In this document: one piece after another, positions 4,021-64,000 of the stretch | How positions within the stretch are numbered: the first letter of the stretch is position 1 | Layout of the letters: each line of letters begins with the position of its first letter | From: Loxodes magnus | Lineage: Eukaryota; Ciliophora; Karyorelictea; Loxodida; Loxodidae | Direction: 5' to 3' | DNA: 64,000 nt | NCBI GenBank assembly: GCA_946699065.1 | Contig: CAMPDV010001305.1 | Coordinates: 62,001-126,000 of the forward strand | Made by a program: the position numbers and the translations under genes | Notes under the pieces: model-generated | Seen by the model: only the letters and a program-made list of their open reading frames with translations | Databases searched by the model: none | Told to the model about the DNA's origin: nothing

Positions 4021-4035
4021 TATTATATATATACT

Positions 4036-6250: not shown

Positions 6251-6263
6251 AACAACAAGGACG

Positions 6264-11200: not shown

Positions 11201-11249
11201 AGCACTTAAAGTTAAAATCTAAACTAAATAAACTTGATATATATGCAAG

Positions 11250-11930: not shown

Positions 11931-11932
11931 AA

Positions 11933-32455: not shown

Positions 32456-35400
32456 TCACTCATCACTACTTGAACTAGATTTCTGCGAACGAGATCTTTT
32501 TTCAATCCTCTTGCTTTTAGCTGAAGATTTTGTCTTTCCAGAGAAATCTACTTTTTAAGCTTGATTTTTTCTTTTTTCTTATACAAAATTAATAACTCCT
32601 ACATCACCTGTTCCTTTTTCAGCTGATATATCTTCTTCTTTCTAATTTTCGTCTTCCTAATCTTCATTTTCGACTTCTTATGGCTCGACTTCAGGAGCCT
32701 CTACTTCTGGTTCATCGTTTACTTAATCTGCATATAAATCATCTGGTACGGTATTAACTTATACAATTCCATCTTCTTCATCTTATTATGGCTCGACTTC
32801 AGGAGCATCTACTTCTGGTTCATCGTTTACTTAATCTGCATATAAATCATCTGGTACGGTATTAACTTATACAATTCCATCTTCTTCATCTTATTATGGC
32901 TCGACTTCAGGAGCCTCTACTTCTGGTTCATCGTTTACTTAATCTGCATATAAATCATCTGGTACGGTATTAACTTATACAATTCCATCTTCTTCATCTT
33001 ATTATGGCTCGACTTCAGGAGCCTCTACTTCTGGTTCATCGTTTACTTAATCTGCATATAAATCATCTGGTACGGTATTAACTTATACAATTCCATCTTC
33101 TTCATCTTATTATGGCTCGACTTCAGGAGCCTCTACTTCTGGTTCATCGTTTACTTAATCTGCATATAAATCATCTGGTACGGTATTAACTTATACAATT
33201 CCATCTTCTTCATCTTATTATGGCTCGACTTCAGGAGCCTCTACTTCTGGTTCATCGTTTACTTAATCTGCATATAAATCATCTGGTACGGTATTAACTT
33301 ATACAATTCCATCTTCTTCATCTTATTATGGCTCGACTTCAGGAGCCTCTACTTCTGGTTCATCGTTTACTTAATCTGCATATAAATCATCTGGTACGGT
33401 ATTAACTTATACAATTCCATCTTCTTCATCTTATTATGGCTCGACTTCAGGAGCATCTACTTCTGGTTCATCGTTTACTTAATCTGCATATAAATCATCT
33501 GGTACGGTATTAACTTATACAATTCCATCTTCTTCATCTTATTATGGCTCGACTTCAGGAGCCTCTACTTCTGGTTCATCGTTTACTTAATCTGCATATA
33601 AATCATCTGGTACGGTATTAACTTATACAATTCCATCTTCTTCATCTTATTATGGCTCGACTTCAGGAGCATCTACTTCTGGTTCATCGTTTACTTAATC
33701 TGCATATAAATCATCTGGTACGGTATTAACTTATATAATTCCATCTTCTTCATCTTATTATGGCTCGACTTCAGGAGCATCTACTTCTGGTTCATCGTTT
33801 ACTTAATCTACGTATAAATCATCTGGTACGGTATTAACTTATACAATTCCATCTTCTTCGTTTTCTTATTGCTCATTAAATAGTCTTTGGAATTTCATTT
33901 ATGCGAAACGGTTTACTTAACTTCCATGTAATTCTATTACATCACTAGGACTTAGGCCCTCTAAATCAAAGACTTATTCTCTAATATATTCTTAATCTTT
34001 TAGTTTACTTCTAATTACAAAAGCTTCTCCATCTGTTCTTATTTCTTGACTGTACCATTATCCTATTTTTAGAGGCTCTTCGGTTATCTTTATTGTTTTT
34101 TCAGCGTTTTCCAAATAAAGATCACCAATTGGATTTTGTAATATGCTTATTGTTGGTAATTTAATTAATGTTTGCTTTCCAGAATCTTTTCTTAATATTT
34201 CTTCAAGCATATAATCAATTTCGAAAGAATACGATGGTGTGCTGAAATCGTTTCTCTAAAAAATGTAAATTATTTCTTCAAGTTCTAATCCTTCTCTAAA
34301 TCTAGCTTGTCCTTCACCTTTTGTCTCAACTTTAGCATCTTCCCCTTATGATACAGATACATCATTTTCAAATGGCCACACTGTGATTTCACCTTCAGTT
34401 TCTAACTATAAGATTTCTTCTTTCTTTTTCTGAATTGTGTTTTCTTCTTCTTCATTTTTCTATATTATCTGTTCATATTCATCTGCTTCCTTTTCACTTT
34501 GAGATTTTTAAGAATCATCTGCAACTTCAACTGTATCAATATCTTCATTTTGAGGTAATTAAACATCATTTGTAGTTTCATCTATATCATTTTCCTATAC
34601 GATTTCAGGTTTATTTTCTTCCTTTTCTATATCTTAACAATCTCCACCATCCCAACTACAAGCTTCTGTGAAACATTCAATATTGCATCGGCCATCTCCA
34701 ATATATTGTTAGGGGCAAGTTATCGGGCATTCATCAAAGGTTTCCAAACAATCAGTGAAATCGTAATTACATTCTGGAATATTACATTATTCATCGCAGA
34801 TAAAATCTTGCTTACATTCGAAAGGACATCCAGAGCAATCATTATTATCCCAATTGCAATTCTTATTATTACAGTTCTTGTGGCAAACACCATCTCCTAA
34901 CATATCCAAATAGCATCCCACAGCACAATCATCATAAGCTTTGCAATCTGAACCATCCTAATCGCATGAATCAAATTAGCATTATATATCACATACTCCG
35001 TTATTTACCATAGTCTCCTTACAATCAGGAGCACAATATTCTAATTATAAGCAATCTCCTTTATCCCATCCACATGCTGCTGTGTTACACTCATAGTTGC
35101 AATATCCATCACCTAACCATGAAACAAAACAGTTTTCTGCACAATTAGATTTTATGCAGTCTCCAGCATCATATTTGCATCTTGAATTGTAGCAATCTTT
35201 CTAGCATTCTCCATCACCTATCATACTTGTAGTGCATTACCATGCACATTTTTGTGAGCAGTCTGCTCCATCAAAATCACAAGCTTAATTGAAACAACTA
35301 TGATCGCAATGTCCATCAGATATCATTTCCTCCAAACAAAATTCCGAACATCTAGGTAAGCAATCGAATACATCCCATTTACAAGCTTCGTTATTGCATT

Positions 35401-38400
35401 GTTCATCACAAACACCATTATTTAACATACTTTTCTAGCAAGAACTATTACATTCTTCTAATTTATTACAGTCTCCATTATCAAACAAACATTCAGGATT
35501 GTAACAAGTTTAATCACATTCACCATCACCTATCCAAGCTAAAGGACATCCCCAGCCACTCAAATGATTGCAATCTTCTCCATCATAATTACATTCTTTT
35601 ATGTAGCATTCTTATTAGCACATTCCATCGTTAATCATATCTGTACTGCAACCGAAATTACAATCTTATGGGCAATCTCCAGAATCATAATCGCATTCCC
35701 CAATGTTGCATTCTTCATCACACACACCATCTCCATTGAAACCTAAGGGACAACCCGCTCTAGTACAATTATCGCAATCAGATCCATCAAAGTTGCAAGC
35801 TTAATTGAGGCAAAAAACATCACATTATCCATTATTAATCATTGATATTTTGCAATCTGGGCTGCATTCTTCCTCTGGCTTACAGTCTTACAAATCATGA
35901 TTGCAAGCGTCGACATTGCATTCATCTTCGCAAATATCATTTCCAATCATATAATTATGACAACCTGGAGCACATAAATCTTCAGGAGGTGCACAATCAT
36001 TTTCATCGTATTCGCATTCAACAACATTGCATGCTTCATCACATATTCCGTCTCCAAGCATGCTAATTGGACATCCTTCAGTACAGGTAGGTTACTCATA
36101 GCAATCATTTCCATCATAGAAACAAGATTGAGTAAGGCATTCTGTATTGCATATTCCATTGTCTATCATAGTAGCTTAACATCCAGGACTGCAAAGATCT
36201 ACAGTGCAATCATTTCCATCCCAATTACACTCTACATTGTAGCATTCAGCTTCACAAACTCCATTGTCAATTTGAGACTAAGAACAATCTGGAGCACATT
36301 CACTTTCTATAAAGCAATCATTTCCATCATAGCTACAATTCTAGTTCCAACATTCTTTGTCACAAGTTCCATCGTTGATGTAGTTTAATGAACATCCTGG
36401 TGAACATTCTTCGACACAGTCACCTCCATCAAATGAGCATTAAGTTGTATTGCAAGCTAAGTCACATTTTGAGTTTCCAATCATTCCAGGAGCGCATCCA
36501 TCGGCACATAAATCACAGTCTCCACCATCCCATTAACAAGCTTCATTATAACATTCAATATCACAAACTAAATCGTTTATAAATTACTTTAAGCAATCAG
36601 CAGTACAATAATCTATACAATCGTCTTTATCATATTAGCATTGAGGTAAGAAACATTCTTCTTAGCATAATCCATCTCCAACCATATATTCTTCACATCC
36701 TTCAGCACATGGTTCTACTGGGAAAGTAATGCAATCATTTCCATCGTTGAAACATTCAGGAACTTCACATTCTGTATCGCAATGTTTATCTCCTATCCAT
36801 GAAATTAAGCATCCTTTATCTCCGCATTATTCGCAATCATTATCATCGTGATGGCATCTTTCAGTTAAGCATTATTCTTAGCATACTCCATCTCCAATTT
36901 AAGACCATTTGCAACCTTCATCACATTCTTCTATATTTGCGCAATCATCTGAATCGAAATAACACTCTTCTATGTTGCAAATTTCGTCGCAAACCTTATC
37001 TCCAACCCATTCCCATCTACATTCCTCGCTACAATATAAAGGACCTGGGTAATTGCATTCACCTTAATCGAAATCACATTCAGTAACATTACAAGCAAGA
37101 TCGCATTTTCCATTTCCTAAAAGTAAAGGAGGACATTCCTCAGCACAATAATTATTGCAATCATCACCATCCCAACTACATAATTCATTTTAGCAAGTCT
37201 CTTAGCAAGTTCCATCATTAATCATATCATATGTACAATCTTTGTTACAATAAGGCTCACTAGGATAAACACAATCTCCGTTATCCATATTACAGTCAAG
37301 ATTGTTACATTCAGGGTTGCATACTCCATTTCCAAGATTTTGAATAGAACATTCTTCTTTACCGCAGTAACCTTCAGGTTTTGGAGTTTTTATGCAATCG
37401 AGATTATCATACCAGCAAGATTCTACATAGCAAGGATCATTACAGTTTCCATCTCCTACTTATGACCAAGCACATCCATCAGCGCAGAAGTCACAATCAG
37501 CTTCATCCCAGTGACAGTCTTCATTATTACACTATTAATCACAAAATCCATTACCTACAAGATTTTTTGAGCATCCTGGTACGCATTCAGTTGAATTTTA
37601 ATTATCATCAATATCATTACCACATAATTTGCTTGCTACACAAGCTGGTTAACTTATTCCATCTCCAATCATTGACCAAAGACAGTCTTTGTCACAATAC
37701 CACGCATTTGGATAAATACAATCTCCTTGATCCCAACCGCATTCTTCTAAATTGCACTCATCATCGCAGAATCCATCTGCTAATAAATGTACACATCCAG
37801 GTACTATTCTGAAACATTTATTATCACAGTCTTATTTATCAAAATTGCATTATTCTACGTTACAATCTGGATTACATATTCCATTTCCTACTTATTCCCA
37901 CCAACAATTTTCTGCACATTTTTATTCGTTGAAAGGATCACAATCACCAAAGTCATAAACACAGGCTAAAACATTACAAGAGGCGTCACACTGAGCATTT
38001 CCTAAATCATTCCATCTACAATTTTCTGCACAATGTGTTGTATTTGGAAGATATTCTTAAATGCAATCTCCTTTATCGTAATAGCACAAAGAAGTATTGC
38101 AGGCAGCATCGCACACACCATTTCCGATTTCTTCCCATTTACATTCTGTTGTACAATAAATAGTTGAGTCAATAGTGCCACCTTGCTTGCAATCATCGTT
38201 ATCATAGTTACATTCTGGAATATTACATTCTTTATCACATTTTAAGTCTCCTAACCAAGCAAATGGACATTCACATCTATTGCAATCTCCAAGATCAAAA
38301 GAGCACTCATAAGTATTACAATCTCTGTCACAAATTTCATCACCCAACATTTCTTAACTGCAAGTACAACCTTCAGTTTTGTTGCAATCTCCTTCATCAT

Positions 38401-41400
38401 ATCTACCAAATTCATTGTTACAGTCTTCTTAACATATTCCGTCTCCAATCCAAGTTTCATTGCAATCGGGACTGACAAAGCCTGGTGGTACACAGTCTCC
38501 ATTATCCCAATTACATTAAGCGAAATTACAATGCATATCGCAAACTTTATTTCCAAGATCAGTAGTTATACATGCCTCAGCGCATGTATTTATTGCGCAA
38601 TCTCCATTATCAAAATTGCATCTTTCTACATTGCAAGCTTATTAGCAAACTCCATCACCAAGATTTTCATTCAAGCAGTCATAAGTGCATCTATCTTCGC
38701 AATCATCTTCGTCGTAATTACAATTTGCGTTCATACATTCTGCGTTACACATTCCATCATTTATCATACTTGCGTAGCATCCTAACTAACATTGAGGTTC
38801 ACAGTCACGTCCGTCATAGTTGCATTCAGCATAATCGCATTCTTCATCACAATTTCCATTTCCCATTTTTCCTTAGCATTCTAACGAACATTTTTTGTCA
38901 CAATCTTTTCCATCGAAATTACACTGCTCTATATTGCATGCTCCATCACATTTTCCGTCTGCTATCCAAGCATTTAAGCAATCCCATGAACATCTATCAT
39001 CACAGTCTTCTCCATCAAAGTTACATTATTTATTGTAGCAAACTAAATCGCATACTCCATCGTTAATGTATTTAGGGTTGCATTCAGAAGCACACCAAGG
39101 TTCACAATCACCATTATCATAATTGCATTCAGCTGTATTACAAATCTAATTACAAACTCCATCTCCTTTGAATGAAGCTACGCAACCTTGTCTTGTACAT
39201 TCGTCACAATCAAGACCATCAAATTAGCATGATTCAGTTAAGCATTCTTCGTCACAGTATCCATTGTTAATATAATCTGTTCTACAGTTTTCATTGCAAT
39301 AATCTGGTTCATCACAATCTCCAGAATCATAATCACATTATTCATTATTGCAAGCAGGATCGCATATACCATCACCAACATTTCTATATGGACAGTCTTT
39401 GGCACATTCATTTTCTGGCTTGCAATCATTCTAATCAAAGTCGCAACTTTCTACCTAGCATGCAGCTTAGCAAATTCCATCATTAAGATCGCTGTATAAA
39501 CATCCCTCAGCACAACTTGTTGGAGGAGTACAATCAGAACCATCAAACTTACAATCTTCGTTATAACATTCAGTTTCGCAAATTCCATTACTTACTTAAG
39601 ATTCTAAGCATCCCTCAGAACAGAAAGGAGCTGTGCAGTCTTTCCCGTCCCAATTGCAATCTTTGTTCCAACACTAAATTTAGCAAGTTCCATCATTAAC
39701 CATTTTGTCAGCACAACCATAAGAGCATTCTTCATCTAACCAACAATCAGTTCCATCAAATTAGCAAGATTCTGTCTAACACTCAGGATTGCATATTCCA
39801 TTGTTAATTTGTGAAAGTTTGCAACCTTAATCATTGCAAGTATCTTCACAATCTCCACCATCAAATTAGCAAGCTTCAGTATTACAGCTTTAATCACACA
39901 TTAAGTTTGCTAGTGAACAAGGAGAACATTCTGTAGCACAAGCATCACAATCACCTTTATCGAAATCGCATTGCTAATTGTAGCACTCAATGTTGCAACG
40001 ACCATTTCCTAATTGAGATTTCAAACATTTTTCTTGACAGTAGTCCAAGCAATCGTTGTGATCATATTAGCATTGCTTGCTAAAGCAACCTTAATCACAA
40101 ATTCCGTTTCCAAGCATGTCTTAGCTACATCCTTCAGCACAATAATTTTCTGTTTCTCTTAAACAGTCAGAACCATCCATTTTACACTCTTTAACAAAGC
40201 ATTCATCTTCGCAAATATCATCGTTTATCATAGAAAATACACAGTTCTTATTGCAAAATTCACAATCTTAATTATCGAATTAGCATTCAGCAACATTGCA
40301 AGCATCTTCACATATTCTGTTACCTAATTGATTTTTGTTGCATCCAGGAGCACATTCTTCTGCTGGAATACAATCAAAGCGATCATAGAAACAATCAGCA
40401 ACTTAGCAAGGAGGATTGCAAGCGCCATCATTAATCCAACTATGAGGACATCCTTCAGCACAGAACTTTTCATTTGGATATGATGAATATTCTTCTACTT
40501 AACTTTAGTATTTTTGATTTTCTTAAAATACTTTAGTAATTTCATTTTCTTTATTTGTTTCTGCTTTAGACTTTGTCGGTTGAATACTATAAACTTGAAT
40601 ATCATCGAAGTATACATTACCATACTTTTCTCCAACAAAATCTCTAATAATTAAAGCTATCTTTTGGCTATCTTGCTTGAAAATATCAGTGAAAGCTATT
40701 ACGACTGTTTCCCATTGGTTAGTATCAGGGAGTCTTGCAGCTACTTAATCAAATTGCTCAAATGTTGAAGTGGATCCAATGTAGAATGGATTAGTTATAA
40801 TTCCACTTTCATCTTATTAGCAAAAACCAATTTATCCACCTGATTTGACTGATCCATCAGATACACCCAAATACTTAAATGCAACAATATATTAATCTGT
40901 AGGACTGAAGAAAGGTAAACTATATAACTCATCTTAAGTAGTTATTTAGAGAACTTTATTAGCTTCATCTTTTGGATCAGATACTATACTAGACAAAAAT
41001 CCTTCTTCAGTTTGCTCATTCCAATTATTTGCTAGATTTCCTTCCTCGAAATTATCGTCAAATATCAATTTAGCTGAAGCTAATTATGCAACTTGATCAT
41101 AAATATTTTCAACAGTATCTAAAGCAATTATAACAATGTCATCGAAATAACAGTCACCAGCTGGTGAAACTCTGTCTTAGAAAACAATACGTAGAGATCC
41201 TGGTTCGTTAAAGTCATTGAAAGTTAAACAATATTTTTACCAAGATTCACTGTATGGAAGATGCATTGCTTTTACATTATCTTCATAAAAGTCTTTATCA
41301 GTACTTGCAAGTCATACTATTTCTTCTTCGTTACCAACTCCAACAGATCCTCCAATATTTTCTACATCACTATTTTCTTTAGACATAGCGAGATAATTGA

Positions 41401-44400
41401 AGCAAACCACATAGCTTCCTGTTGGTGATTCAAGTAAAGGAGTGAAAATATCTCCATCTATATTCTCTGAAGTGAAAGTTAAAACGGTATTATCAGAATT
41501 TAAAGGATCATGAGTCAAAGTACCAGAAGTTAAAGATTCTTCTTTTCCTACCCATTTATTGAGGTTTCCATTTTCAAAATCTTCTTAGAAAATAGCTGTT
41601 TCTTTGCTTGGAGAACAATCTTATCCATCGAAATAACATTATTCTACTTAACAAGAAGGTTCACATATATCATTGTTTACCTGTGATTTCTAACATCCAA
41701 GCCAACAGAAGTTGTTGTTTGGGAATATACAGTCACCTTTATCAAAATCACATTCTTCAGTATTGCATTCTAAATTGCAAATTCCATCTCCAATAGTTCC
41801 TTAGTTGCAGGTATCTCCACATGGATGTGCGATTGGAGGTCTATCACAGTCCCCGCCATCAAATTGGCATGTATCGATATTACATTGTTAATCGCATTTT
41901 CCATCTCCTACTGAAGACCAGGTGCATTCCTTTGAGCAAGTAGTACAGTCTTCTTAATCGTAGAAGCATTCTGCATTATTACATTGACTTTAGCATATTC
42001 CATCTCCTAGCTATGCATAGCAACATCCAGATGAACATTCAACCTAGCATTCTTCACTACAGTCTGGTAGATCATTTTAGCAATCAGAATTCTAGCATTC
42101 AGGTTCGCAAATTCCATCATTCAACCAATCCCAAAGACATCCTTCGGCGCAATAATATTGATTTGGATAAACACAGTCTCCTCCATCATACTAGCAATCC
42201 AAAGTGTTGCACTACTAATCACAGTATGAGTCCCCAACTTATCTCCAATAGCATTCTTCATTGCATTTATTGAGATTAGGATATCTGCAATCAAATCCAT
42301 CGAAATCACATAGAGCATTGTTACATCTAGATTCACATTCTCCATTGTTAATCATTCCCCAAGTACATCCTTCGAAGCAAAGATTTTCATTGGGATACAT
42401 ACAATCTTAGCAATCATAATTGCAAGCAGCATTGTTGCAGGCATCTTAACAGATTCTATCGCCAATAAAGTTCCTTTAGCAGTCTGGAGCACAGTGAGTA
42501 GAATTTGGAGTTAAGCAATCACCTCTATCATACTCGCATTCTTTAATTAAACATTCAGGTTAGCATAAGCCATCTCCAATCATTTCATTCTTGCATTGAC
42601 TTAATTATTTGCACTACCCAGGACTAGGTTCAGGGTCAAAGGGGTCAGTTGGTATATCTGATGGCAGAGTTGTATCATTAATAACATAAGGAGTATACAA
42701 AAAGGTTTTGTAGCAAATGTTAGAACCCTTTAGAATGAAGGTTTTATCTTGAGATCTAACATTATTTTAGAACTTAACTGCTATGGCTTGATCTTTATTC
42801 AAAGTAACTTGATATGTAACTGTGTCCAAGTTATAGAAGATAAGTAAACTATTCCACTATGTCAAATCAAGATTTCCTACTACATAATTCTCTTCAGAGT
42901 TACTTATAATCACTTGATAGTTTTATCCAGATTCTTCTTATTCAACGATAAGTTAAACTTTATCTGGCAATAAAACTACTTAAGAGTCACCAAGTATGTC
43001 AAATCCAAAAGTTATATAGAATGTATAATCACTTAAAAAATAAGGAAGTACTTCATAAGCTACTGATTAGGTTTCATTCAAGCAAAGTTAGTCATTACTT
43101 GGGGTGGGATCTCCTGTAGGTGTAACTGTTACGTTGGTACAATTTATAGATTCCATTTGAAGTTAAGCAGAACTACTATAAGTGGAATAGCATGAATTAT
43201 TTGGCTATGGTTCTGGTGTCGGAATGTCAGGAAAATCTTCTGGAATATCATCTTCACTGTATATAATTGTATTTTAGTAGCAGAAAGGAAGATTACCATA
43301 GAACGTGTATTGATTAGGCCTTGGTTCCATATTAATAATCAATCCTTTTCCATTTTTATCCCATTCTGTTACGTTTTCATACTTCCTTTTATCATTCAAT
43401 TATACAGTTAAATTATATGTCTTTGAATCGAAAATTACCCAAAGTTCATTCCATTAGTCATTTACCGATCCTATTTCGAGGGTAACTCCTTCTAATTCAT
43501 AAACAAACATTCCAAGTCTATTCTTTGAAGTTGGGTAGACATAAAAATTACCATAAGGAAGCGAAATTATTTTTTCACGTGTATTTGTACTTTCATCTTC
43601 GTAAGAATAATAATTTGGCTACAACAATGAGTAAAGTGCATAGACATAGACCTCTCCTTAATCCTCCGCTCTAATTGTTCCAATACCAGTTTCATGATAA
43701 CATCTAAGACCTGAGGTACATGTAGTATCTCCAGTAAATTCGCTTTCCATAGGACTATCTTTGCATTCTTCCTAACAGGACTTTAAGTAATTGAACGAAG
43801 AGTCTGCTTTATCTGGACAAACTTTGCCTTCACATTAATCAATAGAATATTTCAAGTCTTCTGTTAGAGTTTTCATGGTATCCACGTAAGTTTAATTTGT
43901 CAATGAAGGAAGATTTGACAACTCTTTTTCATAGCAATCAATTAATTAGTTGGAAGTATTGATTAGAAGCTCATAAGAAGATAAGCATTCTTCGCTATTA
44001 CAGTTGTCATCTAAAGATTCTATAGCAGAGAAAAGATCCTGTGTAGCTTCTTCAGAGGCTAGAGAACTTTTTATTGATCTTAGCTTGTCGTGGCTTGAGA
44101 GATCATTCTAAGCTTCCACTGTTTTTTTGTTTACAAAGTAACCTGCTAAATAATCTCCACTTATTATTTATTATTCAATTCCAGGTCCTTTCCATGCTAC
44201 TTCTACATGATCAGATTCACCTGCATCTTTATGCAAAACTTCTATGTAATATGGCTATTCAGCAATCAAGTATATTTCCTTGGATTTTTGAGAGAGAGCT
44301 GCATTGAAATTACCAACGCTTGTCTATTTTCTTAAGTATGCAATTTATTTTTTATCAGCAGGATTTCCTGAAGTACTGAGGTATAATTCAGATTCATCAT

Positions 44401-44932
44401 CAGAAGCTATCCAAAATGTATACTTTCCATTCACTTTAGGAATTAAATATCCTCGAATTCTCTGACCATATGAGCTGTACCAGTCTATTGGTCCTTATAA
44501 GCTTTGGAGTGTACTTGCTTCGTCAGGTATATCAGGATATTAAGCATTCTTAGTGAAGTCTGTGATATATTTTCCTGATATCTTCCAGAATTCTGCATCA
44601 ACAAATCCTCTCTACAGTTCGAGCTCTTCATTAGCCTCTTTATTCTTGATGTGTTCCTATAAATGATTCGAATCAGTATCCCATTTTAAGGCAGCCTCAT
44701 AGGCTAAATTTAGCTCTGACCTAAAATCTTTGAGGATTTTATTATTAGGCTCAGCTACTTAGGTCACATAGATATCCTTTTGCTTAACAACATCCTCTAT
44801 CTCCAGCATAAGACTGTAAATAGTATCTGCATCAGGACAATCTTTCCAGTTCTTTTCAGGTAAATAGCTTTAATACATCGCATTGACAGCGAAAAAAGAA
44901 GTAATAAGAAAAGCACTAAGGAAGGCTTTCAT
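32456..44932 (-). CDS. Giant secreted PA14 / beta-sandwich / LNR-repeat protein, 4,158 residues
   Basis: ATG at 44,932-44,930 and TGA at 32,458-32,456 are exactly in frame (4,159 codons, no intron needed) with TAA/TAG as Gln. Order: signal peptide ([18 protein letters not shown]); PA14 domain, residues ~115-265 ([38 protein letters not shown]); a helical Cys-bearing linker; two beta-sandwich LamG-like domains to ~750; about nine LNRs (~775-1,100); two concanavalin-like domains ending in YFDDI (~1,115-1,450); about fifty more LNRs (~1,490-3,430; pattern C..(L/I)(G/N)(D/N)G.C...C....C..D..DC); an acidic linker and another beta-sandwich; the 36-residue array; and a Ser/Arg/Lys tail ending SSSSSDE. 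LNRs normally bind calcium. I see no transmembrane helix near the end, so it is probably secreted, surface-bound or stored. One TGA lies at codon 1,207 and must be read through. Confidence 0.93.
32681..33865 (-). repeat. Tandem 108-bp minisatellite inside the giant gene (about 11 units)
   Basis: The marker TGGCTCGACTTCAGGAGC occurs at 32,681, 32,789, 32,897 and then every 108 bp to 33,761,, eleven times. Each unit encodes 36 residues, including [20 protein letters not shown] and [12 protein letters not shown], with four TAA-Gln codons. Units are almost identical. Those at 32,789, 33,437, 33,653 and 33,761 carry GCATCT (VDAP) instead of GCCTCT (VEAP). The unit at 33,761 also has TACGTATAA in place of TGCATATAA, and the outer edges are diverged. 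The length is a multiple of three, so changes in unit number keep the frame. Confidence 0.97.
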
Positions 44933-50304: not shown

Positions 50305-53300
50305 AATCTTAGTGCAATGGAATATATTAAAGTGGATATAAATGTTTTACTAATTTTAATTAAATCTAAAACAGCTAAATCCTAAAAAATTGCTATGTAG
50401 TTCTATTCTATATTTGCATCTGTTATAATAGCTTTGATACCTTTAATATTTTTATAAGATCTATCATAGATTATTTTAATGAAGCATAAGCTTTTAAATT
50501 ATATTCAGAAGGTTTTTTAAGGAATACTTTATGAGTAAAAGTTTATTGAAATAAGCATTTAAAATAAATATTTAAAATGAGAAAGCTTTTATTCATATAA
50601 GTACTTTTAATAATTAAGCATACACTTAATTTTAAGTTTTTAAATCCCTTGAAATAATTTATAATTATTCTTTTTCTTTATTACTTATATAGCATCTTAA
50701 TAACTCTACTTTAATTATTTAAATTAGCTATTTCTATTCATTTGCGTAGTTATCTTTTATACTATTAGACTTTATACACTTGTATTATGAACTTTATATA
50801 TCATCTTAAATGAACTCATGATTCAATTACCTATGTAAGTATAATTGCTCTAAGCTCTATAGTTAAATATACTTAATTTTGCTTATTTTATTGTCTATAT
50901 CTTTAAATTCTTTATTCTTCATATTAAATCTATTAAATTCCTACTAGCTGCTAATATTAATAAAGTGCTTCTATGCAAAATAAATAAAAGAATAAACCAT
51001 TTAAAATTAAAAGATTTGAAGTATTTATGCTAATTAAATTTATGAAAACAGAATTACCAATATTAATGTGATATCATTCTATTAATTAATAATCACTACC
51101 ATTTGTAATACTCTAATCATGCAGTCCTTGTCTTCATATCCTTTTATTTTTCAATTTATTATTTCATAGATTTTCGCTTTTAGAGTAACAACTTTCCATT
51201 ATTTTTAGATTTAAGCTAACAAAATGATAGATATAGACTAGATTATCTTATACAACTTTCTTAAAGAGAGAATTCTTCTTTGTATGTTCCACTAATTTTA
51301 TTCGTATTGGATTTGAAAAATAAAGCTAAGGTAATTGTGATATGACTGAAATTAATTAAATTCCTAAACTAAGTCTCTTCAGACACTTTTATTATTAGAA
51401 TGTTTTTCATTTTTACTATTACAAACTTGATGATCATTGTTGTGAAATCTTCTACTATCATAGTTGATTACTTGAATTTTCCATAATGCTCTGCCAATAT
51501 TAATGATGCAAATCTATTTAAGTTTTATTCATAGAGTTTAAATGAATTTAGTCTTCAATTATTAATTTATTTTCCAGTATTCTGAGTTCCTCACATAATG
51601 TAAGCTTTAAAATTTGTATGAATTTAGCTAAATTAAATATCAATTTTGCTGGTAGATTATGCAAGATATTTAAATTTGTAAGTTGCAATTACTAAGCTAT
51701 CTACAATGGGCAGATCTATTATACAATTTATGTTTATTGAGTATCTTGTTGTAGATGAATTTGCTGATTCTTTTGTCCTCTATCTTAATCTATTATGGTT
51801 CTGATTTGTAAATTGAAATATTGGTTTGAAGTAGCTTGATTGTATTAATTGAGGAAGTATCTTTGATTATAAATATAATAAGTTTAAATAAGCAGTTCTT
51901 AAATATGAATGGATATAACTAGATGCTTATTATATTAAAAGCTTATTTAATCTTTACTATTTTAATAATTAGTTTCTTTGCTTATTTCTTTCTATTTATT
52001 ACTAGTGCTAAGCATATTTATTTACTTCAATAGTTCAATCTACTTCTCTTTATTATTCAATTCAACCTTTCTCTTTATATCTAATCTACCTTTTAACTTA
52101 AATAACATAGCTATCTAGATTATTTATCTTAGTTCAAATTATTAACCTGTTAATATGCTTAATACCTAAATTTATTTGGAAGCAGAAGATTATAGAAAGA
52201 AAAAGTTTTTAAGAATAAAGAATAAAGAGAATGTGAGAAGCTTATCAACTGTATATTGCTGTCCCGGATTTAAGAGTTTAGAAAATCTATTAACAGAAGA
52301 TTTAGTTTCATATGTCTAATCATAACAGATATAAACCAATCAAATCCAGAACCTACTATCGCCAGAGTTTAAGACTTTAAGATCAAAATATAACAGAAAA
52401 CTTTCAATAAAATAATCTAGCCAAGTATCTAATGAGTAAATTTGATCTAATTAGTGTTTACAGTTGTTATCAAATGAACACCAAAGGTTTCTCATACGTA
52501 ATTAATAAAATAATCAAAATCCCATCATTCATTTTATTTGATAAACTTATGTCTCTTTCAGATAGATGCATAAATAATAAATAGCTAAATAGCTTTAAAT
52601 TTGATTTAAACTAAAGCTAATTAATAATTAAACTATGAGACTATTTAATTTCTAGTTGTTTGATTCTATTAAATTCATATTCATATATTCATTATATATG
52701 AAAATGAGTGACATAATCAACTTATAAGCTTAATCTTGAGATTTACCATCACTTTATTACCTTTAAGTGTATCTCAGAATCAAACTTTGAAGACTTCTCT
52801 TTATTAAACTCAATCTTCTTCGAAAGAAGATACTCAGAGTGGAATAATCGTAGACAAAGAATTGTTAAGACTTAAGATTACTCAACTCAAGTAAGTTTCT
52901 ATCACTTAGTTACCTAATCTTCAAACTATGATTAAGTAGTTGCTAGAAGTTTAAATAATATCAGTAGAAAGTATTATCACCTTTCGTTTTTATGTAATTG
53001 GTTAACTGAAGAAAGAGTAGCATAGAACAAAGAATAGCTACAACTATTATTCGCTAGAGATAAGAATTATACTTTAGCTTGTACAGATTTACAATAAATC
53101 TATCAAATATGCAGAGCCATTTTAATAATAAAAAAACCTTCAACTAGCATATTTAGCTTAATATTACTCTAAAATCCTCATCTTGCAGCTTCTGTCTGCA
53201 AAATTTATAAAGATTAGACTATTTTAGAACCAAATAAAACTAAAGAAAGAATTTCCTAAAATAAGTAGAACAAAAAGCAAGTGAAGAACAGTAGATGTAA

Positions 53301-54339
53301 TAAAAGTACGCTGAGTGATTTAATGCAGTTAGTAGATGAAGAATTTACAGGTGATTACTATTTTAGAAAGCGTCTACAATAGAATTTTTATATTTTGCAT
53401 TTAATCTTGAGGAATACAGAGGAGATCAGAGTCAAGTTACTAAGTAAGAAAGATTTCCTTGATGATGCAATTTTTTAAAGAATTAAATTGCTAAGTTTCT
53501 ATTTAAATTTTGAATGATTACATAAATTAACCAACCAATGCTCATACTCACTAGACGATATCATATTTAAAAAGTAAAGCATTCTAGTAAATTTAAATTA
53601 AAGAACCAGCTACTAAAATATCTTAATACTTAGTTAAATAATATATAATCTTGATTGACTTCTAAATCTGAATAATAGGTAAAGTAATTTTTACTTAACA
53701 AATAATTTAATTTTTATCTTTAGGTAATTTATTCATAAGTAAATAACCTAGCAATTTTATTTTCTAGCTAAATCTAAAACTCAAAAGGATATAATTATAT
53801 GATAAGCAACTAAAAACACTGAACTATTACCTATTCCAATTTTTTTCTTTTGCTTTAAAGTTTTTTCTTAGAGGTTTTTATTTTTGCTTAATGTGTATAA
53901 ATCTATTTATTCTAATGAAGCATCAATGTTTTATATATTCAGCATTGCTATTAACTTCCTTAAATGCTATCTAACCTAGAATTTTAAAGTTGTTTAGCAA
54001 TAATTAAATAGGTTAAATATGACAGTTACATTTTTAAAGGTAAATAATGAGGATTGGCTAGAAATAAGAGTTGCATTATAATTTCTTATGTGGATAATGA
54101 ATATAATATTGGATTTGCATTATATATGGAATGTGCTTAACTGATGCTGCTAGGAGAGTTAATGATATGCTAAAAATGCCTAGATATAATAGTAATGATT
54201 GCTAAATTAGTTAGTTTCTTTATAAGGCTTTAATTAGATCTAAGTAGCTATTTATTTAATTATTTAGAAATCTTCTCTTTAAATCTATCAACCTAAAATA
54301 ATCAGTCTACCTTATCAACTTAATTAAACCAACTTTATT

Positions 54340-57300
54340 ATATATATACTAAAAAATGCTTACCTTCAAGAAGGGCTTTAATACTGCCTTCTCAAAGAAG
54401 GAGAGAAAACCTGAAGCATTTTGTACTGCCACGTCTTCGATTTAAATAGTCCAACTTCCTCTATTAAGAATGGAAACTAGACTCATAACACAAGCTCTCA
54501 GACTACACAGAACCAAATTCACTGATCGAACGAACATTATATAATAATACACTCAACGGTAAAAGGATATCAATGTATCTTTGATTGGATAAACTTCACT
54601 AAAAGGAGGAGAATAAAAAAAGAAAGGAATGAAGGGGTAAAAAAAGTCAAAATCTAAGCAATGATTAAATAAAAGAATGAACAATTATTTCAGCCAATGT
54701 CCCTGAAGAATAAATGGTAAGAATCTACTAAAATGCCTATGATGATCTATCAGATATGGTGACCGAAGTTTAATTTTACCCACTTTCTGAAAATACTGAG
54801 TTAGTAGAGAAAAAGACCTTAGACTAAGAAGTGATACAAGTGTTTAGAAATAAAATATACCGCAAGTATGGACAAGCAATGACCAAATTGATTGTTAAAT
54901 AAAACGGAATAGTTTATTTGGACTTCAACAATGAATAAAGATACTAGCAATTCGCATAATTCAGAGAATAAACATTCAAAGGCGTTAGAATTCCTATCTA
55001 AGCAAGAAATTAATTTGAAAACTTTGATATTCATAACTAGTCCGTTTACTTCATAATAAATGAATATTCAAACATTAAGAAAATAATGGAAAAAATGAGA
55101 TAATATGGAAAATCTAGAGGAGAGGTATAGCATGCATACCCAAATACTATAATGCTAACAGGTAGCAGTGTAGTGTACTTAGATTTAAAGGATACAGACG
55201 AAGCAAAAAGGATACAGAAGTAATAGACCTGAACGGAAACAAAATGAGAAGACAGCACCCAGTAAATTTTATCTGTTGCTTATGCAAATTGAAAGGGCTT
55301 CAGACCAACAATAACGAATGGTGAAAACAACAAAAAGAAAACTACATACAAGAGATTTAGAGATGCTTGAAGGAGAATTTAAATTAACAATAAAAAAACC
55401 AGATTTAAAAGCAAATAAGAGGATAATTAAAGAAGGAGAATAAATGATTATAGAGGAAGCAAGAGAAGAAGAGAAGGAAATAGAACGAGGAAAGTAGAAA
55501 AGTAGTTAAAACAACTATACAATTAAATTATAAAATTTTTTTATGATAAATGAATAAATAAGAATTATTTTCATCAAAATGGAATTGGACAAAAAAATGA
55601 AGGCTTCAAAAAGAATTTCTATACCAGCTCCTCGAAGAAGGAGAGGAAACAAGAATCTATTCTCGAGCAGTCCTCTTATACTTAACCTTAACCATTTTTT
55701 TAATTATCTTAGCAAACTGGAATATAATAGAACTATGGAGGACGGAAATGGACTCAGAAAAAAAAACTTTTTGCGTATTCAAATATCGGAGGAGAAGTCT
55801 AGAAAGCAGGCTTCGCTTGCTTTGCACCAGGAGGTTTCAAAGTTTAATCCTTTTGGCCAGATGAGCATGGAATAGCTCATTAAAGTTGTACTAAACGTCC
55901 TGGAAGACGTCTAAAAGCTAATGAAGGACAATGAGAAGCTAATGCAACAACTTACCCTAGCAGAAGGAATAGAGTCAAGACTCATGTACTAGGAAAGAGA
56001 GCTAAGCGCCCTTTGAAACATACCAAAATGATAGAATAGCTAATCCTAAAACTAGTTTCGGAAACAGCTGAACTGGATAACAGCGGAAAAATAAGAGAGA
56101 AATTGTAAACATTTAAGAAGAACAAAGCAAAACTGGAGCTATAAAAATGGAAATTGAAGCCTAAAAAGAGCATATCCATCAAGAAAAATAATTAAAAATC
56201 AAAAAGAAATGCTTCTGTGGAAGCGTATGACATCTTTATCGGAAGTGTTGGAAATTTTAATAGAAATAAAAAAATATTGGATAAAAGAGAAAAAAGACGA
56301 AGTCTGAATGAAAAGAATGTATTCTAACCCGGATGGTTCAATATAAAAAATCAAGAAGGAACTAAGGCATATAAAAGGAAGGAAAGCCTTGAGAAACCAA
56401 AGTTCCCAATCTTGTTAAAATTGGGTGACCCAAATTTTTATATTTAACAGCAGGGAGCATGAACTGCTTTCATCCTTACGGGGTTGAAAATCCCTAAAAC
56501 GGAAAATACAAATTAATAATATTAATAATATTATTAATATTATTAATATTATTAATATTATTAATATTATTATTATTATATATATTTTTTTAAAACCGCC
56601 ATAGTTGTTCGAAGGTGAACAACAAGGTCATCTTCATCAGAGGTTGGGGAAGTTAAGTACTCATAATGGACTTTATGTCTTCCTCTACTTTGGTTTGGCC
56701 TCTAGACATAAGATTCTTAGACCTTAGGCACTGGATTAGTTTAGTTTAATTCTGGAACGAAAAAGAAATAATATTGCGAGCTTCATCAGAGGTGGGGAAT
56801 TTAAGTACCCATAATTGACACATGTCGTCCTCTGCTTTGGTGATGCAATGAGACACAATCTTGCCATGTCCTTGGACCTCCAACAAGTAGAAAAGATTAC
56901 GAGTATTCTTAAATTATATCAATCTAATTTAGATCACCATTAGCTCACAAGCAAAGACTTCAAACATTTTCCATTTCGATAGTTTCTTCAATAAAATTAT
57001 TGAAGCTTGTTGAGATTACTATCATTTTGGTACGCTTGAGAAATCTTTTTAGTGTCTAATTAAGAAATTGTAAAATCCCTCGCCCTCCTTAGTAGCGATA
57101 CTATCAAGACTGGCATTAAGTAAGAGTATTATAATACTTTATTGTGTAGATTGAGGTAACAGTGTATTGACTAGAACTCAATCTAATAAAGTATTCAACC
57201 ATGAAATAAGCTTAGCAGATTATAAAAATGTATACCAATAAAAATGAACTGATTAATATAAATGCCAATTGAATGTTGCTTCCTTTTAGTGGAAATCTCT

Positions 57301-60300
57301 GTACATTTGTGTAAACAATAAACTTTTACTAAAGCATCAACATTTCTAGAAGCCTTTTGTGCTATAGAGGTTATAGGCAAAATGCAGGAACGAGTATAGT
57401 TAGACAGTTGTTAACCTAAACAGCTTTCTTAGTGTGAAATCATAGGAAATGCTTCCTTTGAAGAGCTTTAACTAAATAATCTCTTCGAGAATCTTGAAAA
57501 ACGAATTACGAAGCTTCAGCATTTGTAAATGGAATAACCTTCATTGAGAAAAACTTTCTTCCATGAAACTAGTTCTACTTACTTTGCTAACAAAGGGAGT
57601 TGATCTAGCTTTGTATCCTTATATGTGATAAATTTGGTAAGCTTTAAATAAAATCGTCATTATTCTTATGAATTAGCTCAAAAACACATTCTATAATGTT
57701 TCCTTAGCTATGAGTTTTAAATTATTAATTATCTTCATATAAGTGAGCTTTTAAGGTAAATAGGATCTACCTTTTCCTCATCCACTTTCTTAACTTTAGA
57801 TTTAAATATAAAGGAGAAAATTTACGTTTTTTTCAAAAGTGGTATATCAAGTAAAGCCTTCATTATCAACAACCTTTAAGCAAAAATATAATATTTTAAG
57901 TTCTATTGAAGTTGGAGTTTCTTTTTACCACAATAAAGCATTATCTTTGCTTATTGAACTAGAAATATCAAATAGCAATCCACTGTAGTGCCTATATTCC
58001 TTGTATTTTTGCAAATAATAACAATCTTCTTATATTTCTACTTTTTAGTTACTCAATATTACTAAACCTTTGATATTGTCAAAAGAGATATTTCTTAGGT
58101 TTAAATAACGATAATTTAAGTAATCATATTACTAAGTATAGCTACCACCTTTTAATTATAGACTTCAATAATATTTAATAGCACTGCTACTATTATTTCT
58201 ATAGCTAGTTCTATACTAAATAGTTATCATATCTATGTATAACTTAAATCATGTTGCATTATCAATGCCTCTTATCTAATAAAGCTAGTATTTAAAGAGT
58301 AAGTTTGAAAACTAATTAATAGTAGTTACTTATAACTTAAGTGCTTTATCCTTCTCTATTAGCTTTAGAGAACATTAGCAAAATCTCTTTTGTAACTACG
58401 AAGATTCCTTAAGGTCTTAAGGCTCTCTCGCTTTAAAACAAGAAGCTAGCAATTGATCCTCAAATAAGCTTAATTTCAGACTCACTTATTAAGCGAATTG
58501 AGATAAATCTGGCTGATCTTTTAGATGAAGTCTAGGAGTGTCTAAAGTATAAAGAGCTGTTTCTTAGTTATAGTTCTCTGATTATTGCTAGATAAACTTG
58601 CTTAGAAACTTCATTCAATTGAAGCAAAAAGATGCGAACTGCAATCATTTAAGAACAAAGAAATTAGACCTAGTTAGTATAAAGGCTAGCTAGTCTAGAT
58701 ATAAGTGGAAATTAGCTGTCTTAGATTAAACTGTTTAAGACATTAAAATTTTGAGCTTTTAATGTGAATTAGAACAAGATAAGACATCGAAGTTCTAGGA
58801 GAGGTTTATTGATTTTACTGACATTCTGTGGAGAAAAACTGATTGAAGGATATAAACCAAATAGGGAAATATCAAAAAAGCTCATAAGTCTCAACTCAGA
58901 TTGCAATTAAATTGAAATGCTAGATGTATTTCTGGTGTAACCTTAGTAGATAGTGTCACTAGTATTATCGCATAATAGGATTTTATAGAACGACAGCAAA
59001 TAATTCTAAGTCCCATCTTTTCAAAATCTTTCCTTAAGCATAATCACATACAACACTTCTCATTATCCTTCCAACTAATTGAACGAGCATGTAGTGTCAT
59101 TAGTAAATTTAGTAAGTTTCTTGATGATCTGTTCACTACAATTTATTAGAAGCGGCTTTTCCTGAAACTAATTGAAAAGTTTAAAAACTGGTGTGCTGCA
59201 CTTAGTTAGTAGCACTCGATTATTAGCATAATAAGATAGATTTTTAAAGGAAAATTTGATTATTTTTAAAGCCTTAATTATCTTGAAAAGATAGACTTTT
59301 TACAAAGATAGAAGAGACTAGGAAATCTATTAAAAAGCAAATCTCTCTTTAGAATATCACAAGCTAATCACTGGCATAGTGCTATTAATATTTTGCTTTT
59401 CCTTTTTCCATCTTATGTTGTTTAAATAGCTTTACTTAACAATTTTTTAAGTACAATAATGCTTTTAAAGGAAGGCTCAGGGAGCTTCTTTTAGTTTAAT
59501 ATAGGTTTCTTTTATTAATTCCTTAATTCTAATTCTCTTTTGATTTTTAAAGGAACTAGGAGATGATTTTTCTTAAGCTGTCATTTACTAAATATCTTGA
59601 AAAGACTATAAGAAGCTTTTAATTATAGTCTTCTACTTACATGATCCCCCATTTGGATTTTCAAATAAAAGTGAATAATTAAAGTAGACTCATTCCTACA
59701 CTTTTTCTTTATAGTATCTCCAAACTCCTAACTTCGTTTTCAAGTTATGTTATCATCGCTCATCTACAACTCCTAGCATTAAATAAGTTTAAATTTTAGA
59801 TTATAGATTCAAACTCTGATTGGCTTCTTAGTTATAATTAAGCTAGCTCTTGTAATTACAATTTCTTTTTTGTTCTAAATATACTTTAATTCATTAAATT
59901 GACATTAGATATCTGAACTCGTTTACAAAGCTTAATTATTATCGTTTAGTTGAGAAGAAGTAAATTCCTTTAATTCTTTATTGCTTTCTATTTCGTGATT
60001 TGAGGCACAGCATACTACTTTAGATCCACAGTCTTAGATCACTACCCTTTTTCCATGTTTCATTCTGTTATTCTGCGTTTTCTTTTATTATCTAACTTTG
60101 GTAAACTTTCACTTCTACAGCTCTAGCTTTGGTGTACTATGGTATTGTGATTCGATATTTAGAAGACAAAGCTAATGTTTTTGGATTTAAATGCAATAAC
60201 TTTGATACTACATTAGTATATAGAGGAAGAGCTTATGACTTAATCCTACTATCTAAATCGGAAAAAGGTATTTAGCATTTAACAAAGGAAGCAAATAGTG

Positions 60301-61610
60301 CTTTTAGAACGTCTTTCTTAAATACAAATACTACCAAATGAGTATCTGTATAGTTTTTGAAAAAGAAAGGAAAAGAAACCAAGAAAGGCTTATAAATTAA
60401 AGAGAAGCCAAGCCTTTAAAAATAATAAGTCACTTACTTAGGAATATTATTGCATGAGAAAAATAATCTCATTAATCACTGTAAGGAAGCGGGATTTAAA
60501 TAGCTAGCTGTAGTAAAGAAAGTTATTTATCAATTGTTAGATTTAAAAACTTATACCTTGGAATTTTAAAAACCTTTGCCGTTACTTTATTTTGCCTAAG
60601 ATTGAATATGAGGGAGAATTAGTACCTTGGACTGTTTAAAAAGATATTACTTCGATATTAAATGAAATTGGTATGAGTATGAGATTCATATCAAGAAAAG
60701 CTTTTTAAGCAGAACCAAGATCTTTTAGTGAATCATGTTATGTAGACTTAAATTAGCTTCCTTATAAATACATCATGACTCTCAGGTTTTTAAAATTTTA
60801 ATAAAATTAGAAAAGAAAGTTTGGAAAAAGGCAATTCAATAATAGGAAGGAAGAGCGTTTGAAAATAACTGAAAAGAAGATAACGAATACTATAATGACG
60901 TGATGAAGATGGATTAAGGTTATAATATTTATTCAAATAAAAAATAAATAAGCACAAGCTGAATTATTGTTGTTAAGCATGCTAAAATTTAAATAAAAGT
61001 TAGATTTTATAAAAATTCTGATCAAAGCATTAACAGAATGACTAAACGGATATCTTTGTAAAATAATTTCAAAGTTTGACTTAGCTTCCAGAATTAATAT
61101 ATTCTGAACTTAATAAGCATTACGTAAGAGAAATCAATAGCATATATAAATGAGAATCCAATCATACGATGTTCAAAAGGAGTTATAAGACTGTGATTAT
61201 TATATTGATAATCCTTATTGTAAGTGTGGAGAGTATAACACTTTTGATCAGATAATGATATGTATTATAAACACTAAGGGACTGATTTTTATGACAGGTT
61301 GGGAATCTTGATATAAAGAAACTAATAATTTACGATCAGGTATATATTAATTAACTTCCTAGAAAGTAATTAGATTATTTAGATCTTTAGATTAAAATTT
61401 CCACAGAAAGCTTCTATCTTTCAGAGTGGAATTCTTTGATGTGATAGATGAGATTAGAAGAGCAGAATTCAAGTTTAACAAGTTGAAGAAGAGAGAATGA
61501 TGATTTGCTTTTTTAAGACTTTGAAAGTGTCTTCGACCGAAAGAAGTAATTCTTGCAATTAAAGATGTCCATAAGCACTTAAAGTTAAAATCTAAACTGG
61601 ATAAACTTGA
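54340..61610 (+). mobile_element. Decayed LINE, right copy; approximate limits
   Basis: Collinear with the copy at 4,020-11,250. The ORF1-like frame starts at ATG 54,714 (ATG 54,661 is out of frame after a one-base loss). Another one-base loss lies near 55,213. The reverse-transcriptase segment is at about 60,140-60,500 and the Cys-rich motif near 61,220. One extra T near 61,513 shifts the C-terminal frame relative to the left copy. It arose by duplication of the whole segment, not by its own transposition. Confidence 0.6.
56516..56580 (+). repeat. ATT/AAT microsatellite, expanded in the right copy
   Basis: About 65 bp of AAT/ATT-type repeats between the ORF1-like region and the tandem units. 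The matching left-copy site (6,190-6,225) is only about half as long. Confidence 0.85.
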
Positions 61611-62306
61611 TATATATGCAAGATATTTCATTTTTCTTCTTATATTTAAAGGTTTGAATATTAAATTCTTCGTCAGATTTTCTGTAACCATATTTTCAAA
61701 TTAATTATGAACTAAAATTTTAAAAATTTTAAGTCTTTTAAAGCATCTCTCCATAAGTTATATTCACAAGCCAATCTTTTCAGTTTTAATTATCTTAGTC
61801 AGACTATTGTTCATATGGCTGATACTTTCTGTGCTATATTTAATCTAATAGCTGATTTTACTTAAAATTGAATTAAACTTTTTGATATTGAATTAGTTAG
61901 TTATAAACTGAATTAGCTACTATATGTATTATTATCAAGTTACTTCTACTTTCTAAAAACAAAAAGGAAAGAGTTTTCCCTATTTTATATAAGATTAAGC
62001 CTTATTTACCTTCCTTTCCCTTTCCCTTTCACTATACGTTAGCTCAGCTAGTTATGCATTTCCTCGTTTTAGTTTAATACTTTACTTAAATTAATTCTTG
62101 TAACCCTTGATCTTATGTTCGCCCTTTTAAGGAACTGAAGATAGCTATTCTAGCCTTAGAATTTTCTTGTCTTCTTTCAAGTTTCAAAGCTCTTAATTTA
62201 GCAAATAGTGCTATCAGATTTTTATTTATTTAACCTCAAGAAGCCTATCTAAGTTACTGCTTCTAGCTTTTTATATATGATATGACATAGAAAAATTTAA
62301 CTGAAA

Positions 62307-62830
62307 ATGGATATATTTTTAAAAGCTGCTGGCACTTATAAGAAAAAGGCATACGGTGGAGATTAATTACTATTGAATATAGTAAACACTCAAAAAAGAA
62401 GAATGAGACAAATGTTTGGATCTAAAGGAGACTGAAACAAGATAACTACCGTCAAGAAGGGATAAATTAGCTTGATTCGATACGTAATAGAAGAATGCGA
62501 GTCTAGTAATTCTAGAGAAGAATGGAGTGACCCCTTGAACATTTGAGAAAACTTATAAACTGATTCCGTGACTAACCTAGCAAAGGAAAAAATCACGTAA
62601 ATAGAATATTATTATTATTCTACTGCTTTAAAAAGACCTAATGATGAAGATTGCCTCTCATTACTCAGATCAGGATATAACGAATCTATTGGAAGAAGAA
62701 TTAGAATAAATCTAAGAAAATGAGAAGACTGGTCAGATTAGATAATTTCCAAGAATACTCTTACTTGTGATTCTATCTTATCTTGTGGTGAACCTATCAA
62801 TGGTGAAGCAACATAAATAAATTCATTCAT
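62307..62830 (+). CDS. Uncharacterised reading frame, right copy
   Basis: Copy of the frame at 11,933. There are no indels over the first ~145 codons. TGG at 62,730 and TAG at 62,739 replace TGA and TAA of the left copy. Amino-acid changes include Asn to Lys, Leu to Pro and Asp to Asn, so the protein is not under strong constraint in at least one copy. Confidence 0.5.
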
Positions 62831-63619
62831 AATAATACTTTTAAGCATCTTAAGTGTATCCATAACTTTATAGTTTAAAAGATTTTAAATTTTGTGTACT
62901 ATACTTTTACATTCCCAAACATTCTTACTACCCCATAATCCTCCATTCGTTTTTCTCACTTCCTTATTTTAAATACTATCTATCTAATAATCCTCTTAGA
63001 AAATGATAACCTTGAGAGAACCCTAGATAAAAAAGAAGGAAGAGAAGAAAGAAAGAACGCTTAATTAATTTTGCGTAACTGAAAATGCATTCGAGATCTG
63101 GAGACAGGCATAAGGATAACTTTCATATAAAAACGGTCATGAAATCTAAACGCGTTAATAAATATATCTTAAAAATGCTCCTTTAAACACTATGCATACA
63201 CTACAGCTGATATACTCTATAGAAATGAAGCTTTAATTTATATATCTATATAGTTTACTTCAATTATCTCTTCTAGTTTATTAAAATCCATTTTATAATG
63301 TTTCAGTCTATCCTATTAGTCTTTCTATTTTTTAAATTGAAGAGCTTAAAGATTTAATGTTTTCCAGCTTATTTTCATCGTTTTCTTACTCGCCTTTTAA
63401 TTTCTTTACTAAACTATCTTTTTAACGATTCATTTTTATTTAGCTAATTCTCAATATTTTGTGTCTTTGTGGCTTTCTTATTTCTAATTACTTATTCTCT
63501 TCTTACACTTCTCTTATTCTCTTTTCCTCTTAAACTCCAAAAAAGTACTTTTTTTCTCTTCACATTTCACTTTAATTTACGTAAATTCTTTGTGTTCAAA
63601 CTTTTATGTTCCTTTTAAA

Positions 63620-64000
63620 AGGAAAGAGAAACTACTAGCGAGGAAGATTAGCTGGATATATCCTAATTAGTGCCTAAATAGTTTTATAAGGTTTATTGCA
63701 AATTTCTAGGGTATGAGGTTTAATTAGCATTCACTTGTCAATGTGTCAGCAGTACTGTATATGGTAAGAGTGAATCTAAGGATTAGTGATACTTATGTAA
63801 ACAGCTGATAAGTAAACGAGGTGACGTAAATGAAGGACTATGAAGAAGTTAAGTATTTGTATATGAGATCTAAGTCATTTAATTATAAATAGAGATAAAA
63901 GAACGAAATATCGATCGCAATTAAAGAAAAGAAATTTAAGGCCATTAGAGCGACTAGATGATATTAGATAATAATTCTATATCAGAGGAAAGAAAACTCG
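63620..64000 (+). CDS. Start of the gene A homologue, cut by the window end
   Basis: Matches 13,250-13,627 with scattered substitutions. It includes the conserved patch LAGYILISAQIAL and the following FVYEI.. part, and ends at the window edge. Confidence 0.4.

Follow-up and report, generated by a model that had tools for sequence, protein, structure and literature searches.

A PA14 protein with 64 Lin-12/Notch repeats in the ciliate Loxodes magnus, a candidate secreted spacer

What might a single-celled organism do with a protein that carries some sixty Lin-12/Notch repeats (LNRs), and is so long an array maintained? These questions are raised by a stretch of 64,000 nucleotides from Loxodes magnus (GenBank assembly GCA_946699065.1, contig CAMPDV010001305.1, positions 62,001 to 126,000 of the forward strand), here called the window, which contains on its minus strand a single frame for a PA14-LNR protein, here called the giant. 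Comparison with paralogues shows the number, order and cysteines of the repeats to be under purifying selection, as judged from substitution ratios, while the acidic tail appears free to change.

The frame and the parts of the protein

Under NCBI table 27 (TAA and TAG read as glutamine, inner TGA as tryptophan) positions 44932-32456 of the minus strand translate to 4,158 residues, the length given in the initial annotation. TGA occurs at two of the 4,159 codons (codon 1207, the only inner one, and codon 4159, the stop), where ~78 were expected from the window background, and this frame alone is depleted: the other frames over the locus contain 34 and 375 TGA codons in the forward direction and 55, 43 and 33 in the opposite direction. 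The giant was also the only long, strongly coding-scored segment of the window in a codon model; the model was trained on the giant itself and its score is not independent. Better coding support comes from Pfam, from an LNR profile made only from paralogues and from the TGA depletion. The protein contains 402 cysteines and has a net charge of -653. At E<=1 Pfam matched Notch/LNR, PA14 and, weakly, GLEYA (E=0.056), and nothing else.

The order of parts is signal peptide, PA14, two lectin-like regions, nine LNRs (array A), two jelly-roll modules, 55 LNRs (array B), a LamG-like region, acidic repeats and a basic end, the lectin-like, jelly-roll and LamG-like parts being tentative. The features, with the evidence for each, are:

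32456..44932, minus strand: coding frame of the PA14-LNR giant, 4,158 residues, stop TGA included (translation, TGA counts, codon model)
44879..44932, minus strand: signal peptide, residues 1-18 (hydrophobic N terminus in 8/8 proteins; cleavage site by eye)
44147..44635, minus strand: PA14 domain, residues about 100-262 (Pfam PF07691, E=2.8e-10; PDB profile match)
43217..43780, minus strand: tentative lectin/LamG-like region 1, residues 385-572 (Lectin_L-type in paralogue C143a; alignment with region 2)
42629..43207, minus strand: tentative lectin/LamG-like region 2, residues 576-768 (aligns with region 1; conserved in 7 family rows)
41615..42628, minus strand: LNR array A, 9 repeats, mostly of 38-residue period (Pfam, regular expression, paralogue profile)
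40472..41608, minus strand: two tentative tandem jelly-roll (MAM/CBM-like) modules, residues 1109-1487 (internal duplication; Foldseek)
34637..40471, minus strand: LNR array B, 55 repeats (Pfam, regular expression, paralogue profile; collinear in paralogues)
33767..34345, minus strand: tentative, fast-evolving C-terminal LamG-like region, its 3' end running into the repeat tail (alignment of 6 rows)
32674..33874, minus strand: acidic tail, a 36-residue unit repeated about 11 times (108-bp tandem repeat)
32459..32545, minus strand: basic Lys/Arg/Ser C terminus (similar in other copies)

The initial annotation had counted about nine plus about fifty LNRs. With a profile whose only sources were two paralogues, the giant itself excluded, 64 were found (9 and 55), and none in 50 shuffles; Pfam Notch/LNR (PF00066) scored 994.5 bits against a cut-off of 21.2, over 63 stretches. 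Six cysteines are present in 58 of the 64 repeats, seven in three and four or five in the remaining three. A regular expression that permitted D/N/E/G and D/N/E at two acidic positions of the LNR gave a set of 62 repeats in which these positions were D in 62/62 and 61/62, and position -3, which the expression left unconstrained, was D or N in 62/62. Within array B the six-repeat diagonals that match best start from repeats 10-23 and are offset by 30, which points to an old block duplication.

Seven further copies of the gene were compared with the window gene: C782 and C1648 (near), C143b and C143c (91-92% over N-terminal DNA) and C143a, C155 and C1023 (older). In 8/8 proteins the most hydrophobic 19-residue window was the N-terminal signal peptide (1.37-2.02, the next best being <=1.19), and no further membrane segment was detected in these hydrophobicity windows, C782 and C143a being covered only to the end of the sequence stretch analysed and thus incomplete at the 3' end. 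The sequence of the signal peptide diverges among copies; a mature start of Y-x-S-x-L-P is retained. The Pfam match to PA14 in the giant (residues 157-257) scored 40.6 bits against a cut-off of 24, and a profile of seven family rows matched the solved PA14 protein 6qdi (E=4.4e-8). A second PA14 is present downstream of array B in C155 and C143a. Signal peptide, PA14 and acidic repeat tail are all as first annotated.

The proposal of several beta-sandwich domains fared less well, since in profile searches LNR and PA14 exceeded their cut-offs and the concanavalin/LamG-like matches were weak: Lectin_L-type for region 1 in C143a only (E=0.0012) and Laminin_G_2 for the C-terminal LamG-like region in C155 only (E=0.043), a region which the C1648 translation lacks. 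Lectin-like regions 1 and 2 share 26% identity in a two-row alignment; against PDB the best profile match was E=0.27, and the structure model was unusable (predicted local distance difference test, pLDDT, 31.5). The two jelly-roll modules are 28% identical to each other, indicating an internal duplication. For this part MAM was matched at E=0.12, the best PDB profile match was a laminarinase module (E=0.16), and a model of pLDDT 62.5 gave Foldseek matches (best E=1.5e-4) to Eph ligand-binding, CBM29 and CBM4 folds at a template modelling score of about 0.4. Sequences more distantly related to the jelly-roll pair (25-36% identity, many in-frame TGAs) form further clusters on contigs C290, C76, C577, C58 and C247.

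Constraint on the arrays and change in the tail

By the regular expression all eight proteins carry 60-63 LNRs. The protein identity of array B to the window copy was 98% for C782, 91-93% for C143b and C143c, 83% for C143a, 75% for C155 and 64% for C1023. Array A was free of gaps in 7/7 paralogues, with 56/56 cysteines retained in six and 55 in C1023. Over the 1,949 columns of array B six of the seven paralogues had gaps of 0-2 residues, the seventh, C143b, having one residue inserted and 12+17 lost; 326/326 cysteines were retained in four paralogues and 325, 324 and 320 in the others. In the four paralogues tested the best match of a repeat was its positional partner for 62/62 repeats in C143a, C155 and C143c and for 61/62 in C1023. 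These data suggest that all repeats of the array were in place before the genes diverged and that their order has stayed the same thereafter.

The tail differs in both unit and length from copy to copy. The 36-residue unit belongs to the window gene, C1648 has another and C782 a third, in a tail that extends beyond the stretch analysed. The basic C terminus was alike in the four copies compared at that end (window, C143b, C143c and C1648).

Ratios of non-synonymous to synonymous substitution rates (dN/dS) were calculated by part for the 21 pairs of seven sequences, C1648 being excluded, and are given for pairs with defined values. Array B gave 0.054-0.259 in 20/21 pairs, with one pair undefined, array A 0.084-0.242 and the jelly-roll part 0.20-0.37. 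By this measure constraint on the protein is strongest in the LNR arrays. Among 30 near copies the first 4 kb contained 84 non-synonymous and 55 synonymous changes, a dN/dS of about 0.39. Positive selection as the main driver was rejected, as dN/dS was <1 wherever defined. C1023 has 15 inner TGAs, at least two of them where relatives have tryptophan. The second inner TGA of C1648 was considered as damage and rejected; it is codon 3127, which is tryptophan in the window protein.

Gene copies and the tandem unit

The first 13.7 kb of the window is repeated at 50326-64000 with 0-3.8% mismatches per kb, which places the gene in a tandem unit of ~50.3 kb:

1..13674, no strand: first copy of the overlapping part of the tandem unit (self-comparison)
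50326..64000, no strand: second copy of the overlapping part (self-comparison, 0 to 3.8% mismatches per kb)

The L. magnus assembly (705,730,643 bases, 7,843 contigs) was searched with the N-terminal 2.5 kb of the gene; 40 matches were scored among 71 candidates, comprising 35 of full length at 98-100%, three partial at 100% and two at 91-92%. Contig C1305 carries three copies on the same strand, about 44 and 50 kb apart. The 30 near copies analysed include 27 of full length, 26 of which are distinct over 5.5 kb; by their coding 4 kb the 30 form 25 groups at 0 differences and 21 groups at <=5 differences. Across the 26 distinct copies, 1,016/2,701 pairs of informative sites showed all four gametes. 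Fifteen distinct copies that share an upstream type had a diversity of 0.00009 in the 1.5 kb upstream vs 0.00654 in the coding sequence. These data suggest that the copies are mosaics with homogenised flanks. Coding diversity peaks at codons about 667-1167, spanning array A. Further upstream types exist beside the nearly unchanged 1.5-kb upstream region (copies L001-L030).

There are signs of ordinary genes in the tandem unit. Five stretches of it were scanned on one strand each, giving 15 frames, of which six were without any Pfam family and nine had kelch, B-box, IBR/RING, DUSP or ubiquitin-like matches; no mobile-element domain (transposase, integrase or reverse transcriptase) was found in those 15 one-strand frames. 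Neighbour matches by Pfam in the window are:

16283-16744, minus strand: kelch
48259-48671, plus strand: RING and IBR
22306-22796, plus strand: DUSP and ubiquitin-like

The RING, DUSP and ubiquitin-like matches fall below the Pfam cut-off. RING and IBR lie in two frames, which a short intron would explain, and the DUSP and ubiquitin-like matches, also in two frames, perhaps represent a ubiquitin-specific protease.

Relatives, proposed function and its alternatives

A piece of array B (833 residues) matched nine PDB sequences, among them LNR chains of Notch1, 2 and 3 (E 3.3e-8 to 8.5e-5). The best match was GlcNAc-1-phosphotransferase (GNPTAB; 7s05, E=1.9e-9), in an alignment that covers about two LNRs; no transferase domain was found in the giant in the Pfam scan. 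Notch receptors have the LNR module in common with the giant but only three copies of it, against 64 (PMC7649014; here and below papers are cited for parts of their text), and neither Pfam at E<=1 nor the hydrophobicity windows revealed an EGF, ankyrin or transmembrane part in the giant, therefore a Notch-like receptor was rejected. The pappalysin PAPP-A is secreted and has a LamG-like domain, three calcium-binding LNRs, a metzincin catalytic domain and SCR modules (PMC9579167). The giant resembles pappalysins in its predicted secretion, its tentative LamG-like part and its LNRs, and differs in having PA14 and 64 LNRs; the metzincin HExxH motif was present in 0/8 family proteins, and membership of the pappalysins was rejected. 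In the literature surveyed the largest LNR expansion met was a lineage-specific burst in the copepod Oithona nana, with 178 domains per proteome, many of the proteins secreted and a maximum of five LNR plus 13 LNR-like domains per protein (PMC8301441), compared with 64 LNRs in one protein here. The expectation that LNRs elsewhere come in small numbers thus stands for Notch, PAPP-A and the copepod. In L. magnus itself another gene, L050, has at least as many as the giant. No viral relatives were found in two scans of viral contigs, and one scan of genome contigs for prokaryote relatives (metagenome-assembled genome loci) gave 4/52 candidate stretches, with 1-2 LNRs each. A description of a PA14-LNR giant family was not found in the parts of the literature on Loxodes, LNR and PA14 that were surveyed, and the words notch, LNR, PA14 and Muller do not occur in the main text of the paper on the L. 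magnus genome (PMC11441545). In a paper that mentions LNR, PA14 and Notch together, several of the PA14 occurrences stem from an antibody called PA141. By its sequence the giant combines familiar modules in an arrangement and a number that are new.

The giant is rather probably a secreted, calcium-dependent and disulfide-locked spacer of set length, encoded by many gene copies, that links binding ends in a matrix or granule. With calcium and disulfides as the lock, the 64 LNRs would form a rod or a spring whose length is set. Glycans or partner proteins could be bound by PA14 and by the lectin-like and jelly-roll parts, which lie at one end and in the interval between arrays A and B, and the acidic tail with the basic end may aid packing or condensation for secretion. 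Bridging between LNRs and partners is plausible because each LNR of PAPP-A binds one calcium and the protein contacts of LNR3 are weakened by calcium removal (PMC9579167). The many copies might supply dose in a ciliate whose genome has been inferred to be diploid (PMC11441545). Together, molecules of the giant would build up a cross-linked matrix, located in the cell coat, in secretory granules or in the lumen of a vesicle. Of the calcium-loaded matrix, surface or extrusome protein first proposed, secretion and calcium sites are upheld at the level of sequence (signal peptide in 8/8, ligand positions kept), and the compartments are not distinguishable.

Several observations weigh against the spacer. 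The lectin-like and jelly-roll assignments are weak. For the N-terminal 780 residues dN/dS was 0.16-0.87; for the C-terminal LamG region it was 0.23-0.86 once the C1023 pairs, of 6 columns, were set aside. Several parts thus appear weakly constrained. Array B of the window gene and C155 differ with a dS of 2.3 and dN/dS of 0.07, and ratios with dS >1 are rough because they are near saturation. The copy number is uncertain because some contigs look redundant (L019 and L020 are identical), and damaged copies seem to exist, as the match to the jelly-roll query is split in two in the middle copy of C1305 and in C2184/C1328.

An unlikely alternative is that the giant is the content of a discharged organelle, such as an extrusome or pigment granule, in which an acidic polymer condensed with calcium swells on release. 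Predicted secretion, acidity, multiple copies and variable charged tails would all suit such a polymer, as would a putative likeness to the matrix proteins of ciliate dense-core granules; Pfam at E<=1, however, gave only LNR, PA14 and the weak GLEYA.

It appears improbable that the giant belongs to the lumen or statolith matrix of the Müller vesicle (statocyst), where an acidic, divalent-cation-binding giant would help to deposit barium sulfate, or would tie the statolith to its stalk or to LNR-bearing membrane proteins. In the Loxodes vesicle a body of barium sulfate is carried by a ciliary stick (PMC5460273, PMC10954788), and laser cutting of the link abolished gravitaxis (PMC5460273). The composition of the giant would, however, suit any secretory compartment, and with 3-60 Müller organelles per cell (PMC10954788) there is no obvious call for many gene copies. 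Also in favour are LNR arrays on multi-transmembrane proteins resembling OSCA/TMEM63 in the same genome:

contig C1996, 30001-40000, strand not given: L050 (with L051), LNR array of 62 stretches by Pfam and 78 by a custom profile
contig C198, 267001-277000, strand not given: L049, LNR array of 12 by Pfam and 13 by the custom profile

Both arrays are flanked by hydrophobic segments. L049 has a full-length, sub-threshold match to PHM7_cyt (24.4 bits, cut-off 27), and at the matching place between hydrophobic segments the L050 frame has a match to RRM_1 (22.7 bits, cut-off 20.7); PHM7_cyt has an RRM-like fold. Three Loxodes RSN1_7TM proteins aligned from end to end with a profile of L049 and L050 (E=3.9e-5, at a probability of only 43%), against 0.14 for a reversed control and 0.61 for a control with another segment. 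L049 and L050 are thus probably OSCA/TMEM63-like membrane proteins. Against this identity, neither locus was among the 11 RSN1_7TM and 35 PHM7_cyt matches in the genome, and PDB gave no match to the N-terminal part of L049. The OSCA/CSC1-type genome matches are partly grouped on contigs C67, C1095 and C815, and LNR matches repeat on contigs C198 and C1996 at intervals of about 11 and 31 kb. A common mechanical toolkit, with PA14-LNR giants as matrix or tether, LNR-bearing OSCA/TMEM63-like channels that sense force for the Müller vesicle and calcium- or barium-bridged LNR contacts as gating spring, is a highly speculative extension.

There is little likelihood that the copies form a variable surface-coat family which diversifies by gene conversion and so alters surface recognition: the contrast between coding and upstream diversity (15 copies), the mosaics and the differing tail units would fit, but dN/dS is below 1 where defined, the diversity peak covers array A (0.08-0.24) and the hydrophobicity windows contain no membrane anchor in the eight proteins. 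Ciliate surface (immobilisation) antigens have a hydrophobic C terminus for a glycosylphosphatidylinositol anchor; the end of the window protein is basic and serine-rich, with no hydrophobic window.

The giant presents a module of Notch and pappalysins, known there in small numbers, as a long array that has been frozen, in a unicellular host and apart from Notch signalling. The fixed-length array beside a hypervariable repeat tail offers a natural experiment on the constancy of repeat proteins. The giant and the LNR-bearing membrane proteins provide secreted and membrane-bound candidates for the molecules of Loxodes, those of its gravity organelle included, and the gene copies raise the idea that germline gene arrays may be the means by which a somatic nucleus that is near-diploid copes with high demand.
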